A stretch of 29,661 bases of DNA from the IMG/VR virus record IMGVR_UViG_3300017917_001698, positions 1-29,661 of that record; one strand, given 5' to 3'. This document shows positions 3,403 to 28,308 of this stretch, piece by piece (positions within the stretch are counted from its first letter, which is position 1; each line of letters opens with the position of its first letter). Source of the stretch: a virus. A program made the translations under genes and the position numbers. The notes below the pieces were generated by a model. It saw only the letters and a program-made list of their open reading frames with translations, did no database searches and had not been told where the DNA came from.

Positions 3403-3615
3403 TTATACTAAAGATTCTTTTTCAGCATTAAGTGCAGCAATTTTTTTATCAATTTCTGCAATCTGACTATTTAAAGATTCAATGGTTTCTTGATTTGGAG
3501 AATCAATAGCGTTTTCTTCAATAACCGAAAGTTGTAAATTATATTTGCTATATTCTACACTTCTTTGATGTTGATCAATTATTGATATTTTATCTTCATT
3601 TGTTAGTAGACTCAT
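3403..3615 (-). CDS. small coiled-coil protein, first gene of the left-hand group
   Basis: A 70-residue protein. The C-terminal half (ETIESLNSQIAEIDKKIAAL) is a clear heptad-repeat coiled coil; the N-terminal half (NEDKISIIDQHQRSVEYSKY) is also helical. No known family is recognised. The ATG at 3615 has a near-ideal ribosome site AAAGGAGG 6 bases upstream, and a TGGTATAAT box lies at 3632-3640. This looks like the first gene of a transcript running leftwards into the replication genes. The final codons GTATAATAA also contain a TATAAT string, mentioned separately as rejected. Confidence 0.68.
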   Translation of the reverse strand: MSLLTNEDKISIIDQHQRSVEYSKYNLQLSVIEENAIDSPNQETIESLNSQIAEIDKKIAALNAEKESLV

Positions 3616-3713
3616 TATTTCCTCCTTTTAAATTATACCACTAATAAATATATTTGCTCTTATGTTTGAGCTTTTTATATATTTTTCTATATTTTATTTT
3701 TAAATATATTTTT
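3616..3713. other. 98-base AT-rich intergenic region
   Basis: This gap separates the receptor/carbohydrate block from the replication block. It is nearly pure A/T and begins next to the SGNH hydrolase stop with a T-run followed by an A-run (a palindrome of about 14 bases at 3711-3725). A weak GCTC/GAGC hairpin lies near 3658-3673 and the promoter box at 3632-3640. No convincing GC-rich terminator stem is present. It may mark a module boundary, or an easily melted site. I see no repeat array of the iteron type. Confidence 0.45.
3632..3640 (-). promoter_or_regulatory. extended -10 promoter element (TGGTATAAT)
   Basis: On the minus strand the gap before the gene starting at 3615 reads AGTGGTATAAT, an extended -10 box. 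A start of transcription about 7 bases downstream (near 3625) would leave a leader of about 10 bases that begins at the GGAGG ribosome site. I see no TTGACA-like -35 at the usual distance; the upstream DNA is almost pure A/T. The placement at the head of the small-gene and replication group supports a real promoter. Confidence 0.55.
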
Positions 3714-4628
3714 TTAAAAAAAATCATTGTTTTTTGCCTTTGTAAAAAATAAATTAGATATAAAATGTGTCCAAGCGGTTCCAGGATGAGAATTATCTTT
3801 TGCTACACCCCAATATGGAAGATTATTTTTATTTTTATAATAATCAGTTTTATCTTCTTTATTATGTATTGGTTTAAAATATTCTCCATCTACTTTTTCT
3901 TCCACTATAAAATTATTAAAATTATATTTTTTAAATAACTCATAGTCTCCAGCACCCCATGTTGACCAAAGTAATTTTATTCCAGAATTGTTACAATAGT
4001 CTTCTAGTAAATATATAAGATGAAAATTATCATAAATATTTGTTTCTCTTTTATACTCTAGGGTATATCTTTTTTGAGCATGTTTGTTATTTTCAGAAAG
4101 CCAATGAGTATTTGGGAAAGCTTTTATATATTCATTATTATTATCATCAAAAATAGTTTTTCTATCTAGATCTGGAAATAAAAGAAATAGGTATGTAGGT
4201 TTGCCATATTTTCTAATAAATCCCATTGTGTTTTTTATAATTAAATCTATTGACGATCCCATATAGGCTGTATTATAATATTCAAGATTTGTATTAATTT
4301 TTTTATTAATTTTATTAGTCAAAAGTTTTGTCCATGTATATTCTTCTGGTATACCTTCGCCAAAAGTCCACGAGCATCCGCCAAACAGAATTGAGGGATT
4401 ATTTTTATCAATTATTTTAAAGTGATTTGATCTAAATCCATTACGATTAATTTTATAAAATACTGGATAATTAGGATCTTCTGCAGCTTTTCCAGAATAA
4501 ATGAAATTAGATATCCAATATCCATCTTTATCTAAATAAATTTCACTATTCTCATCTTTAATTTCTTGCTTATAGTTAGTTCTGAAATCTAAATGACAAA
4601 TACTATCTTTTTTTAATATTTCATACAT
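3714..4628 (-). CDS. SGNH/GDSL-type hydrolase
   Basis: A 304-residue protein of the SGNH hydrolase superfamily, which includes esterases and deacetylases acting on lipids or sugars. The nucleophile block is GGCSWTFGEG (residues 83-92, Ser86). A later NTAYMGSS stretch supplies the conserved glycine region, and LFLLFPDLDR is the likely third block. The catalytic Asp-His pair appears as DNSHPG near residues 278-283. No signal peptide is present, so it acts in the infected cell or as a virion part. The ATG at 4628 overlaps the glycosyltransferase stop (ATGTATGA), so the two are coupled. This gene is very AT-rich: the 60-base line starting at 4081 has 15 G+C. Together with the transferase it could build and trim a sugar modification on a virion or host-surface component; that pairing is inference. 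Confidence 0.8.
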   Translation of the reverse strand: MYEILKKDSICHLDFRTNYKQEIKDENSEIYLDKDGYWISNFIYSGKAAEDPNYPVFYKINRNGFRSNHFKIIDKNNPSILFGGCSWTFGEGIPEEYTWTKLLTNKINKKINTNLEYYNTAYMGSSIDLIIKNTMGFIRKYGKPTYLFLLFPDLDRKTIFDDNNNEYIKAFPNTHWLSENNKHAQKRYTLEYKRETNIYDNFHLIYLLEDYCNNSGIKLLWSTWGAGDYELFKKYNFNNFIVEEKVDGEYFKPIHNKEDKTDYYKNKNNLPYWGVAKDNSHPGTAWTHFISNLFFTKAKNNDFF

Positions 4629-5523
4629 TTATATTTGACTCCTCTAACAATATACCCTTTTCAAAATCTAATCCAACATATGTGCCATATTCTTTTAATG
4701 TTCTTTGTGATCCTAGAGAAATATTATTTATTTTATTTTCAGTAAAAATTGTTTTTATTGTATATTTTGAAAATTCTTCTAGTTTGTTACACTCATCTGG
4801 AAAAGTAATCCAACAAACTACTCTATCTGAATCTACTCCATAAAGATGAAATACTACGGGAATATTTGGATACATTAAATTATAGCCATTTGTATAAAAT
4901 GATGCAGCTCTTAATATTTCTTCTCCAAAATAAAAAATTGCTGGATGTTGCACAACTTTGTGTATTTCACCTTTACCAAAAATAAAACCAGCAGATACTG
5001 ATTCAGAACAGTATGATGAGTCAAAAGGAGATCCTTCTTGATTTATTAATCTACTATTTTCAAATAAATATGATTCTTCTTGATTTCTTTTAAATCTAAT
5101 TCCAGTTGTATCAGCAGACAAGTCTAAAACTTCTGATCCGTCTTTTTTATATAAATATGATGGTGGATATCCAGTTAATATACATCTATTTCCAATTGAT
5201 AAATTTTTTTCTAAATTTTCAATTATTATTGAATCCCAATTTTCTCTAAATCTACTATGTGAATCAATCTGTAAATAATAATCTTGATTGTCATATAGTT
5301 TGTTAGCCAAATACCTTCCCATTCCAACACCAAGATTTTCTGGAGCTTTTGAATATTGAATTTTTATATTACTATTATTAAAAATTGTTTTATTATTTAT
5401 ATAACATTCATGTATACCAAAATATATGTCATTTTCTCCAGAACTTTTATCTAAACAGTCTTGTACCGTTTTTAATAATTCTTTATCATCGTATGATGCA
5501 ATTTGAACAAATATTGATGACAT
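4621..5523 (-). CDS. GlcNAc-transferase-type glycosyltransferase (Skp1-GT-like)
   Basis: About 300 residues, matching from memory the glycosyltransferase family of which the Skp1 hydroxyproline GlcNAc-transferase is the model (PF11397, GT60-like). The opening strand SSIFVQIASYDDKELLKTVQ is typical. NLGVGMGRYLANKLY (63-77) corresponds to the family's conserved Gly-Arg segment. YYLQIDSHSRFRENWD (82-97) carries the DSH metal-site motif that replaces the usual DxD. A large C-terminal part includes ESVSAGFIFGKGE and a HPAIFYFGEE motif. The best start is ATG at 5523, forming TAATG with the upstream stop; a GTG two codons earlier (5529) is also open. The protein is cytoplasmic, with no membrane segment. 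The acceptor could be a phage tail protein or a host glycan; the sequence does not tell. Confidence 0.8.
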   Translation of the reverse strand: MSSIFVQIASYDDKELLKTVQDCLDKSSGENDIYFGIHECYINNKTIFNNSNIKIQYSKAPENLGVGMGRYLANKLYDNQDYYLQIDSHSRFRENWDSIIIENLEKNLSIGNRCILTGYPPSYLYKKDGSEVLDLSADTTGIRFKRNQEESYLFENSRLINQEGSPFDSSYCSESVSAGFIFGKGEIHKVVQHPAIFYFGEEILRAASFYTNGYNLMYPNIPVVFHLYGVDSDRVVCWITFPDECNKLEEFSKYTIKTIFTENKINNISLGSQRTLKEYGTYVGLDFEKGILLEESNINV

Positions 5524-5750
5524 TACCACTTACCAAGAGGACATCTTGCATTTTCTAATGTAGTTTTTACTGCCATAAAGCATCCACATTTTTTACATTG
5601 ATTTGTTAATTTTATTAGCTCTGGGCATTGTTTACAAATTTCAAATCTTCTATTAGATTCTTCTGTAGTTGCTGGCTTTGTTGTTGGATTTAACCAGTCT
5701 AAAGGTGTTACACCGTTTTTTTCTTTATATTGTTGCCATCTGCTTTTCAT
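5523..5750 (-). CDS. small Cys-rich putative zinc-binding protein (CPLGKW type)
   Basis: A 75-residue protein with seven cysteines in the C-terminal half: ICKQC, QCKKCGC and RCPLGKW, ending exactly on the KW. The spacing fits one zinc site, possibly two. I recall small proteins ending in this CPLGKW-like motif in many aquatic phages but know no established function. The start is ATG at 5750: GGAAGGA stands about 7 bases upstream and the codon forms TAATG with the preceding stop; an in-frame GTG at 5774 is less likely. It lies between the adhesin genes and the glycosyltransferase, to which it is also joined by TAATG, so the three are probably made together. Confidence 0.75.
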   Translation of the reverse strand: MKSRWQQYKEKNGVTPLDWLNPTTKPATTEESNRRFEICKQCPELIKLTNQCKKCGCFMAVKTTLENARCPLGKW

Positions 5751-6187: not shown

Positions 6188-8560
6188 CTATACTGCAGAA
6201 CATCTATTTGAGCCAGTACATGCAAGACCGCTTGCAAGTGGGCATCCACATCCAGTTGATGTACAAACTCCACCATTTCTATCAATTGTTGTACAATTTC
6301 TAAGCTGTTGTGCTGCAGTAGTTGTGGTTGTTGTGGTAGTAGTTGTAGTAGTTGTTGTAGTAGTAGTGGTAGTAGTTGTACTAATAAGAGTCCAAATTGC
6401 ATAAAATGTTAATGTTCCAGATATTGTATACGTTGTTCCTGGAGTAGCAAAAACTGGATCACCTCCAGATAATGGATTTCTCCAAGTACTAAACGTATAT
6501 CCAGATCTTGTTGCAGATGGTACTGTAAAAGTACTACCATATGTACCTGTATAACTATATGATGAAAGACCACTACCAGGTCCAGAAGAGAGAAGCCCTC
6601 CATTAGCATTAAATGTTACAGTATAAGTTGTTCCAGTCCATCTTGCATATAATGTAATATTTGATGTTGGATAATATAAACTTCCAGCATTGCCAGCAAA
6701 TGTACCTCCAGTAGTTGCTGTATACCATCCATCAAACGTATATCCAGTTCTTGCATTTGGTGTAGGTAAAGTAACTGATCCTGGATATATTGCAGAATCA
6801 GAAGATACTGTTCCAGATCCACCATTATAATTATAAGTAACAGTGTATGTGTTAGGATTCCAAATTGCCCAATATGTTCTGGCACTTTCTAAACCAAGAG
6901 ATCCAAATGTATAATTTGTGCCAGCTGATAAGAAATAAGGATCACCACCAGATTGTGGATATCTCCAATAATAAAGTGAATAATGAGTTCTTGTAGCTGA
7001 TGGAGCAGTAAATGTACTTCCACTAAAACCAGAATATGTGTATGAGGTTAGACCATTTCCAGGTCCAGAAGATATTGTTCCTCCGTTAGCATTGAGTGTA
7101 ATATCTATAGCGCCAGCAACAGTTATTGTTGTATTTGTAATTACATTTCCTGGTTGAGCTGTTACAGTTAAAGTGTATGTTCCAACAGTTGTATAGGTAT
7201 GTGCTACTGATGCATTTACCGTGGATGTATTGGCTGCAATACTTCCAGAAGTATAATTAGGAGTTCCATCTCCCCAATTTATAGTATAACTTGTTGGATA
7301 ATGACTTATATTAAAAGCAAAATTATTAGAAGCATTTTGATTAACTGATGTTGGAGTAACTGCTCCAAGAGCAACTGCTTGATCTAAGGTATAACCAGAA
7401 GAAATACCAATACCATAATTACCGTCTGTATTAGTTGCTTTTACTCTAACAAAAACATAATCTCCAACATCTGTTAGTGAATATGTTCTTGTGTTTGCAC
7501 CATAACCACTATTTGTTAATGACCCAGTAATACTATCTTCAAGATACCAGTCATATAGATACGTAGTACTTCCAGAAACATAATTCCACGATCCAGTTGT
7601 TGCAGTTAATGTTGTGCTAACTGGCAAATATCCTCTATTGTTTAAAGGACCTATTGTTGGTGCAACAGTATTTACTGGAGCTGGAGCAGTTGTTGTAAAA
7701 AGATTAAAATCTGTAGTTCTTGTAGTTGGAGACGCATCGTTATACCAACTATCAAATGCAGTTACTACTAATTTTGCATAATATGATGTTTGTGGAGATA
7801 AATTTACATTATCAGATACGCCTGTTATATTAGTTCCAGGTGTTACATTTATTGTTTTTACAACTGTATTATCAGATACTTTTCTTATTGTTAGTACTTG
7901 ACTATAAATATATGTTGATGCATCTGGTACACCAGTTATTGACCATGAAAAAGTAGCTCCTCTATCTGTAATTGAAGATATTGAAAATCCACTTAATCCA
8001 AAACCCATTCTTAATAATATAGCTGGAGTTTCCAATGGAGTAGTTCCATCTGCATTTGTTGCATCAACTCTACCTTTAATATAATATGATGGATATAATG
8101 CATCAAAAGCTGTTATTGTATAAGAGATATATGTAGAATCTGTTGTATTAGCAGCAGTTGGACTTGAAGAAGAATTATATGTGGTATCTACAGAAGTTGA
8201 ATATCCAGAACCAGGATTATTTGATGTTTGTATTCTTAATCTATAAGATGTAGGACTTTGTGTCCAGGCACCTCTTGTTAATCGAACAACATCACCACTA
8301 TAAAAACTAGTTTCTGAATTCACTGTTCCATATGTCGACGATGCAACATATAGTTTAGAATATGGTATTTTAGGTTGTGGAACATCGGCGCCAGTAAAAA
8401 CTAAATTCCATACATTTCCATCGGAATATCCTTCGGCTTTATATCTATAGATTTTTTTAATCTTTTGCCAAGTAGAACCATTCCATCTATATATGTTGCT
8501 TATAGCATTCCAAACATTACCGTCAGAATATCCGTCAGATTTATATCTAAATATAGGCAT
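6188..8560 (-). CDS. tail adhesin with PKD and InlB-type repeats, poly-Thr stalk and Cys-rich tip
   Basis: A 790-residue modular virion protein, probably a receptor-binding fibre. Order of parts: a duplicated 15-residue motif (residues 4-18 and 38-52, core GYSDGNVWN) at the N-terminus; about 370 residues of Ig/fibronectin-like beta modules; a PKD-like domain around 425-485 (INWGDGTPNYTSG, AHTYTTVGTYTLTV); three InlB/Listeria-Bacteroides-type repeats at about 487-725 (LNANGGTISSGPG; TGYTFDGWYTATTGG; VTFNANGGLLSSG); 21 consecutive threonines (728-748); and a terminal segment of about 40 residues with six cysteines (GVCTSTGCGCPLASGLACTG). The ATG at 8560 comes 2 bases after the upstream fibre stop (TAATAATG). 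The N-terminal repeat probably docks to the tail and the Cys-rich end is probably the exposed tip. InlB and PKD modules are common in surface adhesins; the receptor is unknown. Confidence 0.82.
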   Translation of the reverse strand: MPIFRYKSDGYSDGNVWNAISNIYRWNGSTWQKIKKIYRYKAEGYSDGNVWNLVFTGADVPQPKIPYSKLYVASSTYGTVNSETSFYSGDVVRLTRGAWTQSPTSYRLRIQTSNNPGSGYSTSVDTTYNSSSSPTAANTTDSTYISYTITAFDALYPSYYIKGRVDATNADGTTPLETPAILLRMGFGLSGFSISSITDRGATFSWSITGVPDASTYIYSQVLTIRKVSDNTVVKTINVTPGTNITGVSDNVNLSPQTSYYAKLVVTAFDSWYNDASPTTRTTDFNLFTTTAPAPVNTVAPTIGPLNNRGYLPVSTTLTATTGSWNYVSGSTTYLYDWYLEDSITGSLTNSGYGANTRTYSLTDVGDYVFVRVKATNTDGNYGIGISSGYTLDQAVALGAVTPTSVNQNASNNFAFNISHYPTSYTINWGDGTPNYTSGSIAANTSTVNASVAHTYTTVGTYTLTVTAQPGNVITNTTITVAGAIDITLNANGGTISSGPGNGLTSYTYSGFSGSTFTAPSATRTHYSLYYWRYPQSGGDPYFLSAGTNYTFGSLGLESARTYWAIWNPNTYTVTYNYNGGSGTVSSDSAIYPGSVTLPTPNARTGYTFDGWYTATTGGTFAGNAGSLYYPTSNITLYARWTGTTYTVTFNANGGLLSSGPGSGLSSYSYTGTYGSTFTVPSATRSGYTFSTWRNPLSGGDPVFATPGTTYTISGTLTFYAIWTLISTTTTTTTTTTTTTTTTTTTTTAAQQLRNCTTIDRNGGVCTSTGCGCPLASGLACTGSNRCSAV
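6317..6379 (-). repeat. 21-codon poly-threonine tract
   Basis: Twenty-one Thr codons in a row using ACT, ACA and ACC in mixed order, between the last InlB-type repeat and the Cys-rich end of the adhesin. The mixture of synonymous codons means the amino acid run, not an exact trinucleotide repeat, is what is preserved. It probably forms an extended rigid or glycosylatable stalk. Length could still vary between relatives. Confidence 0.9.
8405..8551 (-). repeat. duplicated N-terminal motif in adhesin (two copies)
   Basis: Two 45-base copies, at 8507-8551 and 8405-8449, encode FRYKSDGYSDGNVWN and YRYKAEGYSDGNVWN, identical at 12 of 15 residues. They are separated by a W-rich linker (IYRWNGSTWQKIKK). 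The copies flank the probable tail-attachment end of the adhesin. The DNA copies have diverged, so this is an old duplication. Confidence 0.8.
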
Positions 8561-12301: not shown

Positions 12302-12787
12302 CTATCGTGGCCCAACTGCAACCCAGTTTACCTTAATGTTATTATCAATTGTTAATTTACCACCATAGAAACCAGTTCTAATTGCTCTGATTGTAAAGCC
12401 AGTAGTTGATACTCCATGTAACGATAAAATAAAGTCTGCTTGAGCATGTTCTGATCCAGTTGAATTATCTAATGTCAAAACAATAAAAGGTTTTTGAGCA
12501 AATACAACTCCAGACTCAAATGTTACATATTGTTTATAATATGTTTTTCCTCCAGGCGTTGTATCATCGTCTGTAGATGTAATTGTAGTTTTTCCAAACG
12601 CAACAGAATGACTTGCTGGATCTAGTTGTCCTTCTGTAACATCGCCTTCCCAATCTGGGACTGTTACTACACCAAAACGATTAATTAAAGCATTTAAATA
12701 ATCACTGTGTTGATTTACCACATTAATAATTTGCTGAATTCCAGCCAAATCCATTATTGAGGCATCTGATATTTTTATATAAGACAC
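12302..12787 (-). CDS. short tail protein with H-type-lectin-like domain
   Basis: A 161-residue protein. The N-terminal 40 residues (IMDLAGIQQIINVVNQHSDY) look like a helical oligomerisation segment. The C-terminal 100 match the H-type lectin pattern as I remember it: FESGVVFAQKPFIVLTLDN, a middle strand, then VSTTGFTIRAI and a final IKVNWVAVGPR, where the family usually ends in a W-x-A-x-G strand. H-type lectins bind sugars as trimers or hexamers, so this may be a short fibre or tip protein for glycan receptors. The start is GTG at 12787, with AAAGGAG 6-7 bases upstream, and a TGATATAAT box lies at 12807-12815. The next gene follows after 7 bases. The fold call is from pattern recognition, not a search. 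Confidence 0.68.
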   Translation of the reverse strand: MSYIKISDASIMDLAGIQQIINVVNQHSDYLNALINRFGVVTVPDWEGDVTEGQLDPASHSVAFGKTTITSTDDDTTPGGKTYYKQYVTFESGVVFAQKPFIVLTLDNSTGSEHAQADFILSLHGVSTTGFTIRAIRTGFYGGKLTIDNNIKVNWVAVGPR

Positions 12788-23146: not shown

Positions 23147-23470
23147 TTATTCTACAGAGCTAAGAACGTCTGGCATTTGGTTCAGGGTAACTCCTGAAGC
23201 AGCCTCGACAATCTTATACACAGTAGGAAGATCAAGTAGTTCTTCTAGTTTAGATAGGTCATCTGCAATTTCAGGTTTATACTGTTTCATTGCTATTTGA
23301 GCACACTCTACCAAAAGTGTCATAGACTTTTCGTTATCTTCCGCCACTGCTGCAACTCCTTCAAACTTCTTCAAAAAAGGACGAAGAAGAGAGATTTTTA
23401 GAGGACGCACTTTAATTTCTGTTCCATCAATTAGAGTAAGCGTTTTTTCCTCATGAATTGTTGTTGCCAT
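23147..23470 (-). CDS. tail assembly chaperone, short form (gpG-like, stand-alone)
   Basis: A 107-residue protein just upstream of the tape measure gene, where the gpG-type chaperone that coats the tape measure lies. It is clearly paralogous to the first 100 residues of the next upstream protein: both share MAT.I, DGTE, V.PLKI, LR.F, the EC..IAMKQ segment, P.I, LE...D.PT and I.E...G. It lacks the C-terminal extension of the long copy. Only 25 bases separate its stop from the tape measure start, so a frameshift extension of the gpGT kind is not possible here. It has a strong ribosome site (GGAGGG, 6 bases before ATG), its own TGATATAAT box, and higher GC than the long copy (27 of 60 in the line at 23161), all consistent with being the abundant form. 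Confidence 0.82.
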   Translation of the reverse strand: MATTIHEEKTLTLIDGTEIKVRPLKISLLRPFLKKFEGVAAVAEDNEKSMTLLVECAQIAMKQYKPEIADDLSKLEELLDLPTVYKIVEAASGVTLNQMPDVLSSVE

Positions 23471-23497
23471 TGTTTCCCTCCAATATAGGTTGTAATA

Positions 23498-23506
23498 ATT
23501 ATATCA
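23498..23506 (-). promoter_or_regulatory. extended -10 promoter element (TGATATAAT)
   Basis: The 44-base gap between the two chaperone genes reads CTATGATATAATTATTAC on the minus strand. The predicted start is near 23491, giving a leader of about 21 bases with GGAGGG before the ATG at 23470. The box could raise the short chaperone and tape measure above the long chaperone. No -35 is seen. Confidence 0.55.
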
Positions 23507-23514
23507 TAGCTAGG

Positions 23515-24207
23515 CTATCTTAAATCTTCATAATCAAGACCCATGCCTATGCCAAATCCAGCCTTTTTTGCATTTTGTCCCTGTAAAGATAATACATCGT
23601 TGCTATCTGTAACCTTACCTTTACTAAATACCCTTGCTTTTAAATCTTCCCATTCTTTTTGGCCACGATCTGAATTAGCATCTAAATCTACACCTTGGAT
23701 TGCTGCAACAAACTTTTTTTCTTCATAATCTAGCTCTCGTCTACTTGATAATATTTCCATCAATTCTGGCATAGAAATAGAAGATTCTAATTCATCATAA
23801 TTTTTCCAAATACCCAAAATAAAAACTTCTGATTCTAATTTTAATAAATCTATATCTTCCCAGGAAGTACCTGATTTGCTTTTTTCTGCTTGTTCTTTTA
23901 CTGTTTCTACAGAATTATCATTAATTTTTATACCGCCAGATATTTCCAATATCTCATTAATTGTTGGCATATCTATATTTTCTTCAAGGTCTGAGATAGA
24001 GTTTGATATTTTTGGATAATGTTGTTTCATGGCTATTCTGGCACATTCAAGCAAAATTAAAATAGATTCATCATCATCTTTTGCATTATTGATTAAAGAA
24101 AAAACATCCATAAACTGCCTTAAATATTTTATTTTTAATGGAGAAACTTCAACTTCTGTTCCATCAAATAAATAAATATTTTTAGTTTGATATATTTTAG
24201 TAGCCAT
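23515..24207 (-). CDS. tail assembly chaperone, long form (gpG-gpT-like fused in one frame)
   Basis: A 230-residue protein. Residues 1-100 are homologous to the short chaperone encoded next. After a polar linker (VKEQAEKSKSG) come 120 more residues (WEDIDLLKLESEVFILGIWK; ISMPELMEILSSRRELDYEE; FVAAIQGVDLDAN) that resemble the T part normally reached by a -1 ribosomal frameshift in other phages. Here both parts are in one continuous frame. In the known system the T part binds the tail tube protein and the G part coats the tape measure. The ribosome site is weak (AGGGA) and the gene is AT-rich (17 of 60 G+C in the line at 23881), consistent with low expression. A terminator and a -10 box precede it. 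The T-like reading of the C-terminal half is inference. Confidence 0.78.
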   Translation of the reverse strand: MATKIYQTKNIYLFDGTEVEVSPLKIKYLRQFMDVFSLINNAKDDDESILILLECARIAMKQHYPKISNSISDLEENIDMPTINEILEISGGIKINDNSVETVKEQAEKSKSGTSWEDIDLLKLESEVFILGIWKNYDELESSISMPELMEILSSRRELDYEEKKFVAAIQGVDLDANSDRGQKEWEDLKARVFSKGKVTDSNDVLSLQGQNAKKAGFGIGMGLDYEDLR

Positions 24208-24222
24208 TATTATCCCTAATAT

Positions 24223-24231
24223 ATTCTATCA
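24223..24231 (-). promoter_or_regulatory. extended -10 promoter element (TGATAGAAT)
   Basis: Just after the terminator downstream of the tail tube gene, the minus strand reads TTTATGATAGAATATATT. The predicted transcription start is near 24216, leaving a leader of only about 9 bases before the ATG at 24207. It is the same variant as at 6170. No -35 is seen. Confidence 0.5.
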
Positions 24232-24236
24232 TAAAG

Positions 24237-24271
24237 CAACAAAGCCCACCTATAAATAGATGGGCCTGTTG
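24237..24271 (-). terminator. terminator hairpin after tail tube gene
   Basis: Inverted repeat in the 80-base gap after the tail tube stop. On the minus strand GCCCATC (24265-24259) pairs with GGTGGGC (24250-24244) around an 8-base A/T loop. An outer CAACA/TGTTG pairing lies just beyond, with a short unpaired step. On the minus strand it is followed by only a modest T-rich stretch. On the plus strand it is followed by ATTTAGTTTTTTT, so the element could work in both directions. Confidence 0.6.
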
Positions 24272-27602: not shown

Positions 27603-27944
27603 TTATTTACCGTAATGACTGGCTACTTCTTCAGGAGTTGCTTCACGCACTGCCTTATGAGTTAACCACTTTTCGGATGCCTCCTTTGTCACAATATTAT
27701 ACCCAGTTTCTATAGATCCTAGGCCATTCCAATATAAATTTTTAACAGAATAAATTGCTACTTTTTCTTTTGTTTTATCTTCTTTAACAAACCCTTCAGG
27801 CTTGCCTTCTTCTGGAAAAAATGATACTAAAACTTCTAAAATATCTCTTTTGGTTTTTGTTCCATATAAATCAATACTATTTTCTTTAGCGTAGGCACGA
27901 AGCTCTGCAATTGTTTTGTTGCCAAAATCTTCAATAAATGACAT
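27603..27944 (-). CDS. small virion-region protein with SAP/HeH-like motif and shared C-terminal domain
   Basis: A 113-residue protein. Residues about 10-42 (KTIAELRAYAKENSIDLYG then TKRDILEVLVSFF) look like a SAP/HeH or Rho-N-type helix-extended loop-helix, a fold that often binds nucleic acid. Residues about 62-113 form a small domain (YSVKNLYWNGLGSIETGYN, EKWLTHKAVREATPEE) shared with the next upstream gene. Such small genes right after a capsid gene are often head decoration or head-tail accessory proteins; that role is inferred. The ATG at 27944 has AGGAGG close upstream, and a TGATATAAT box lies at 27960-27968. Confidence 0.72.
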   Translation of the reverse strand: MSFIEDFGNKTIAELRAYAKENSIDLYGTKTKRDILEVLVSFFPEEGKPEGFVKEDKTKEKVAIYSVKNLYWNGLGSIETGYNIVTKEASEKWLTHKAVREATPEEVASHYGK

Positions 27945-27972: not shown

Positions 27973-28308
27973 CTACTTAAGGTATGTTTGTATTTCTTTT
28001 TCTGTTGCTACTCTAACACTGTTTTTTGTTAGCCATTTTTCTGCATCAGATGCTGAAACTTTGTTATATCCTTTTTTAAGTGATCCTAAACCATTAATAT
28101 TTAAATCTTTTAATGCATATAAAACTACTATATTTGTTTTTGTAGGAGTTGGTGTCTTTATTGGTTCTGGTTTTACTTCTTCAATAATTGCAGCTTCAAT
28201 TTTTTCTTCTTCAATTTTTGGAGCTTCTTCTATGATAGCTGGTTGATCTACAGGAATAACTTCTTCTACTGGCTCAACAACTGGTGCCATTTCATTATTT
28301 TCAGACAT
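27973..28308 (-). CDS. small virion-region protein, Pro/Glu-rich N-terminus with shared C-terminal domain
   Basis: A 111-residue protein encoded first after the major capsid gene. Residues 1-60 are an acidic, proline-rich, probably disordered segment (PVVEPVEEVIPVDQPAIIEE; EPIKTPTPTK). Residues about 60-111 (VVLYALKDLNINGLGSLKKG, YNKVSASDAEKWLTKNSVRV) are homologous to the C-terminal domain of the next gene, with about half the positions identical. The N-terminus starts MSEN like the capsid protein, which may be chance. The ATG at 28308 has AGGAGG upstream and a TGATATAAT box at 28342-28350, immediately after the capsid terminator. A capsid-surface decoration or accessory role is possible. 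Confidence 0.72.
   Translation of the reverse strand: MSENNEMAPVVEPVEEVIPVDQPAIIEEAPKIEEEKIEAAIIEEVKPEPIKTPTPTKTNIVVLYALKDLNINGLGSLKKGYNKVSASDAEKWLTKNSVRVATEKEIQTYLK

Follow-up and report, generated by a model that had tools for sequence, protein, structure and literature searches.

Organization of the putative chaperone locus

The window, that is, the whole 29,661-nt stretch of viral DNA analysed here (positions 1 to 29,661 of IMG/VR record IMGVR_UViG_3300017917_001698), carries two related genes, termed long and short, between the tail tube gene and the tape measure gene. All four genes lie on the minus strand, and the features of the locus are listed below in their 5′ to 3′ order on that strand.

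24920-24288, minus strand: tail tube gene, upstream of the long gene.
24242-24267, minus strand: intrinsic-terminator-like hairpin (11 pairs, 4-base loop) in the interval between the tube gene and the long gene.
24223-24231, minus strand: TGATAGAAT, an extended -10-like box that lies 15 nt 5′ of the long gene's ATG, recognized from the sequence.
23515-24207, minus strand: long gene, a single-frame ORF of 230 aa for a predicted fused G-like and T-like tail assembly chaperone, equivalent to GT (PHROG 10504 and PHROG 10474).
23863-24207, minus strand: N-terminal portion of the long gene (about residues 1-115), G-like, sharing 45% identity with the short protein and alignable with the G of frameshift relatives.
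23515-23862, minus strand: C-terminal portion of the long gene (about residues 116-230), T-like, with homology to what annotated frameshift chaperones encode in the -1 frame.
23498-23506, minus strand: TGATATAAT, an extended -10-like box that lies 27 nt 5′ of the short gene's ATG, recognized from the sequence.
23476-23481, minus strand: strong ribosome site GGAGGG of the short gene, recognized from the sequence and its pairing energy.
23147-23470, minus strand: short gene, an ORF of 107 aa for a predicted G-only paralogue, equivalent to G (PHROG 10504).
23121-17638, minus strand: tape measure gene, downstream of the short gene.

The ORFs confirm the two minus-strand genes of the original prediction at these positions, with products of 230 aa (long) and 107 aa (short). 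The homology between them, which had been put at about 95 residues, was measured as 45% identity over 97 residues (E 2e-30) between the short protein and the first 96 residues of the long protein. The long protein consists of a short-like N-terminal part and an extra C-terminal part, in one frame throughout. The stronger ribosome site claimed for the short gene was borne out by anti-SD pairing in the window (-9.8 kcal/mol for short, -4.6 kcal/mol for long), the box of its own was located at 23506-23498, and the GC contrast seen in sampled lines had the correct direction, whole genes having 38.6% (short) and 29.4% (long). What the prediction overlooked is the long gene's own -10-like box, which stands directly after the hairpin terminator (24267-24242). 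It had also argued from the long-before-short order and from the lack of room for a frameshift product before the tape measure start; both points are weak as support standing alone. The two genes are separated by 44 nt in the window, and the order tube, long, short, tape measure is the same in the window and its relatives.

Probable assignment of the products to tail assembly chaperones

PHROG 10504 matched residues 1-115 of the long protein as well as the short protein, and PHROG 10474 matched only residues 133-222 of the long protein; neither family has a named function. No Pfam match above the cut-off was obtained for the long and short proteins, and a Pfam scan of 50 members of the G domain generated chance-level matches only, one of them to the mycobacteriophage family GP24_25 (E 0.15). 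The unnamed families and the empty Pfam result would suit a reading in which the two proteins are not tail assembly chaperones and resemble them in position only, but homology speaks against it. A tblastn search of the long protein against 50,697 phage records matched 132 records, exclusively from Streptomyces or Rhodococcus phages; in the records examined, both parts are located between the major tail protein and tape measure genes and are mostly named tail assembly chaperones, with a joined-pair annotation in Yaboi, Emma1919, NiceHouse and Francesca. Homology to the annotated frameshift chaperones of Streptomyces phages extends over the full length, and that to Rhodococcus phages covers the T part, the names in both cases being those of the annotation. 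Because the homologous parts lie in the same interval in annotated frameshift chaperones, we assigned the N-terminal part as G and the C-terminal part as T. A few family members also weakly match PHROG chaperone families, and the predicted folds find chaperones. Purely positional resemblance is the least probable of the alternatives considered in this study, with hardly any weight. Many Streptomyces records, LilMartin, Samisti12 and Jay2Jay among them, show G and T as two unjoined genes, often annotated as hypothetical; relatives of these phages are annotated as a frameshift pair.

Predicted structures had mean pLDDT values of 70 (long) and 59 (short), a moderate to low confidence. The structure prediction that had been proposed as a check came out in favour of the assignment among viral models, in which the best named match of long and short alike is a protein named tail assembly chaperone, but gave little from solved chaperones: the HK97 chaperone 2ob9 occupied the top row for the long model against PDB over residues 1-92 with a weak Z of only 4.4. 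Foldseek returned no significant match of the long model in PDB, and a sequence search of solved structures returned no relevant match. The fold evidence for chaperone identity, resting on models, is supportive, not decisive. We infer that the C-terminal half acts as T, given that annotated frameshift chaperones encode a homologous part in the -1 frame, and the long and short proteins would function as GT and G chaperones, respectively. In phage lambda, G is the part that attaches to the tape measure protein and T the part that attaches to the tube protein, the short form being in excess; the two forms arise from one start by a -1 slip at a ratio of about 30:1, which is crucial (PMC5009743). 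The same roles are expected here, though no clear sequence relation to lambda gpG/gpGT was found.

Fused and frameshift loci among relatives

A total of 328 loci was collected from four scans across viral contigs, from the phage records and from the window; the best 80 loci were kept per scan, and the counts below are those of samples. Removal of identical G-T regions left at least 226 distinct loci. Among the 226 listed, 159 have G and T in one frame and 67 have T in the -1 frame. A second G gene follows the long gene in 158 of the 159 fused loci listed and in none of the 67 frameshift loci listed, and no intermediate state was seen among the 226 distinct loci listed. Since 158 distinct loci, the window counted, show the arrangement, it is no sequencing accident. 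This co-occurrence strongly supports the main claim of the original prediction, that a fused gene plus a separate short gene stands in for the frameshift pair.

The sole fused locus in which no short gene was seen (L049) has an unrelated gene after the long gene, followed by the contig end, so the short gene may not be truly missing from that phage. Its positions 4700-5223, where the short gene would be expected, gave a weak PhyH dioxygenase match, perhaps through an insertion or a misassembly. In another locus (L154), the long gene (3428-3955) lacks, through an internal in-frame deletion, the last part of G and the first part of T, maybe as an assembly artefact.

Among the closest known systems are the frameshift chaperones of Stanwilliamsviridae and of the Rhodococcus phages of Trinavirus, which have homologous T parts in the same interval between the major tail protein and the tape measure; those of Streptomyces phages have clearly homologous G parts too. 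They differ from the window locus in having G and T in different frames, a slip site and no second G gene. The link to actinobacteria runs through such relatives only, and a scan of bacterial genomes for relatives that might point to a host found none. Freshwater is the presumed habitat, given the kind of collection and the window's relatives.

A canonical slippery heptamer is present in the G/T overlap of 56 of the 67 frameshift loci listed (CCCAAAC in 31, CCCAAAT in 19, GGGAAAA in 3 and GGGAAAC in 3). The other eleven form a Coruscant/MulchMansion-like group without a canonical heptamer, most of them having CCCGGAA at the corresponding place. Among the fused genes, no heptamer is conserved in residues 90 to 120, the maximum at any position being 8/158. 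A hidden slip site in the fused gene was rejected on the grounds that the junction has no conserved heptamer. The check on relatives that had been proposed thus found a slippery site in those without the short gene and none conserved at the fused junction; the two marks of a frameshift-encoded G/GT, different frames and a conserved slip site, are both absent from the window locus.

It could still be supposed that the long gene itself yields the short form, either through transcript slippage or through a programmed, dnaX-like slip that ends at an early stop, and that another task falls to the short gene. The long gene does contain A-rich heptamers, such as AAAAAAG/AAAAAAA at residue 163 in 60/158, but the commonest site lies within the T part, where a slip would not yield a G-only protein. 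With no conserved heptamer around the junction, and with the short gene being the paralogue nearest to frameshift G genes and having their start signals (see below), we regard production of the short form from the long gene as very unlikely.

Start signals, terminators, codon usage and selection

The box TGNTATAAT was found 5′ of the short gene in 158/158 loci listed, 23-30 nt before the start in nearly all of them, and is followed by GGAGG in 151 loci. After clustering at 85% identity, the short gene's box was present in 38/38 clusters vs 0.7% in dinucleotide shuffles. The same box precedes the G genes of 50/67 frameshift loci at similar spacing and was found before the tape measure gene in 0/155. 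Upstream of the long gene, TGNTANANT is present in 156/157 fused loci, and the end of this box is 5-9 nt from the start codon in 139. These boxes are presumably promoters. A hairpin with a T-run lies between the tube gene and the long gene in 146/157 fused loci vs 0.8% in shuffles; such a hairpin was found between long and short in 1/157 and between short and tape measure in 0/154. Because no terminator separates the two chaperone genes, the short gene would be read also from the long transcript.

The usual distance from a -10 box to the transcription start allows the leader length to be estimated. Combined with the gap of 5-9 nt between box and ATG, it suggests that the leader of most long genes is absent or only a few bases in length, so that translation of the long gene would start in a leaderless or near-leaderless manner. 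The subclade of the window (15 loci including the window) has its -10 box 14-15 nt before the long ATG and a weak G-rich ribosome site, and its long gene is not strictly leaderless. Anti-SD pairing of long, at -2.8, did not improve on that of shuffled sequence (-2.6); short had a median of -10.2 and thus equalled frameshift G (-10.2), and pairing of the short gene exceeded that of the long gene in 157/157. Elsewhere in the window, a TGNTANAAT box at 6178-6170 (minus strand) stops 6 nt short of the ATG of a further gene (6163-5750), another possible leaderless start.

Codon adaptation, calculated with pooled tube genes as the reference, had medians of 0.50 (long), 0.62 (short) and 0.60 (tape measure), and was higher in short than in long in 148/154; GC content was higher in short in 150/157. 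Within the long gene, the median dN/dS was 0.16 in the G part and 0.11 in the T part; the short gene had 0.12 and the tube gene 0.13. Both long and short are therefore kept by purifying selection. A balance between long and short set by promoters, ribosome sites and codon use fits every signal examined and is the probable arrangement, with the short protein presumably in excess over the long one.

In most frameshift loci, the tape measure start adjoins the T stop or overlaps with it (distances of 2 or -1 nt); in fused loci, it lies 17-28 nt past the short gene and has its own ribosome site. Translation of the tape measure may be coupled to that of GT in the frameshift group only.

Phylogeny of the G, T and tube genes

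A tree built from 157 G domains separated the long proteins, a clade (100/99) borne on a long stem, from the short proteins, which group in a clade of their own (99/92). The short clade sits among freshwater frameshift G genes, and short is the slower-evolving copy. The separate clades, together with an identity of just 45% between the two G domains of the window, could indicate that short has diverged to a distinct task, such as the escort of another tape measure segment or of the tail tip, the ratio then being irrelevant. This is unlikely, since short is the slower copy placed among frameshift G genes, the long stem belongs to the G part of long, and the perfect exclusion between a short gene and the frameshift state points to the same task for both. 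An excess G-only protein remains the preferred function of short.

Free trees of T and tube placed some frameshift phages among the fused ones with weak support. When fused phages were held together, both trees scored higher (p-AU 0.62 and 0.79). Repeated independent fusions, which the split of the fused group in the free trees would allow, were set aside, the held-together trees having scored higher. As the constrained trees score higher, a single origin of the fusion is the simplest reading; the trees allow it and do not reject it. The arrangement probably arose when a G/T unit was duplicated in tandem, the first copy being joined in frame and the second losing T, an order of events that we infer.

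Proposed replacement of the frameshift and comparison with known systems

It is likely that two separate chaperone genes have replaced the -1 slip, with the excess of short being set by initiation. In the proposed scheme, the G/T unit of an ancestor with a -1 slip would have been duplicated; the upstream copy would have lost the slippery site, with G and T becoming joined in frame, and the downstream copy would have retained G, a strong promoter and a strong ribosome site while losing T. The long product would serve as GT, its G part holding the tape measure protein and its T part bringing tube subunits, and the short product as the G-only protein needed in excess. Long would be translated from its own transcript behind the terminator, beginning at the ATG or a few bases before it, with little or no ribosome site. 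The short gene would have two sources of message, its own promoter and the long transcript, along with a strong ribosome site and codons that match better. The fuller version of this scheme, to which we give slightly better than even chances, is a once-only switch, in a large lineage of freshwater phages, from recoding to paired initiation control, in which a rarer long gene is leaderless or nearly so, an abundant short gene has a promoter and a strong ribosome site, and the sister phages still use the frameshift. Actinobacteria can translate leaderless messages efficiently, which means that the long protein is not necessarily rare.

The G/GT frameshift is a classic example of recoding held under strong constraint. 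In TP901-1, a permanent G-T fusion gave normal-looking but non-infectious particles (PMC4493119); that a fusion and a separate G gene go together fits the non-infectious outcome of the fusion alone in that phage. T4-like phages, as the PRFect paper recounts in brief, encode the short form and the fused long form in a gene each, without a frameshift (Vladimirov, Gautam and Davidson 2022, via PRFect, PMC10885494), so an arrangement of this kind is, on that account, already known. The likeness, taken from that description, consists in a separate short gene and a fused long gene without a frameshift (PMC10885494); the T4-like phages belong to another lineage and have contractile tails. The sequence comparison bearing on T4-like chaperones was the tblastn search of the 50,697 records, in which only Streptomyces and Rhodococcus phages were matched. 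No description of a fused-plus-short arrangement in actinophages was found in the open-licence literature. As far as the open literature shows, its occurrence in an actinophage-related group, its environmental breadth, the close frameshift relatives and the paired change of start signals are new. Both solutions occur in one related group of phages, where they can be aligned and the signal changes seen, which offers a natural test of the required ratio and of how a frameshift is lost. Annotation that assumes a frameshift will misread many environmental phages.

Other features of the window and its relatives

Downstream of the window's capsid gene, two small neighbouring genes (27603-27944 and 27973-28308, minus strand) share a similar C-terminal stretch, NGLGS..GYN....A.KWLT...VR.AT, and appear by eye to be a tandem duplication, the first having a weak Rho_N match. 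A TGNTATAAT box is located 15 nt before one of their starts and 33 nt before the other. In MulchMansion (L004), similarity to the N-terminus of the window's tape measure protein begins at 3647, 90 nt before the annotated start at 3737, and the tape measure start of this phage may have been annotated too late. Past the tail module on the minus strand, matches were obtained to InlB-type repeats and PKD (6188-8560), an H-type lectin (12302-12787, below the cut-off) and a GlcNAc glycosyltransferase (4621-5529).
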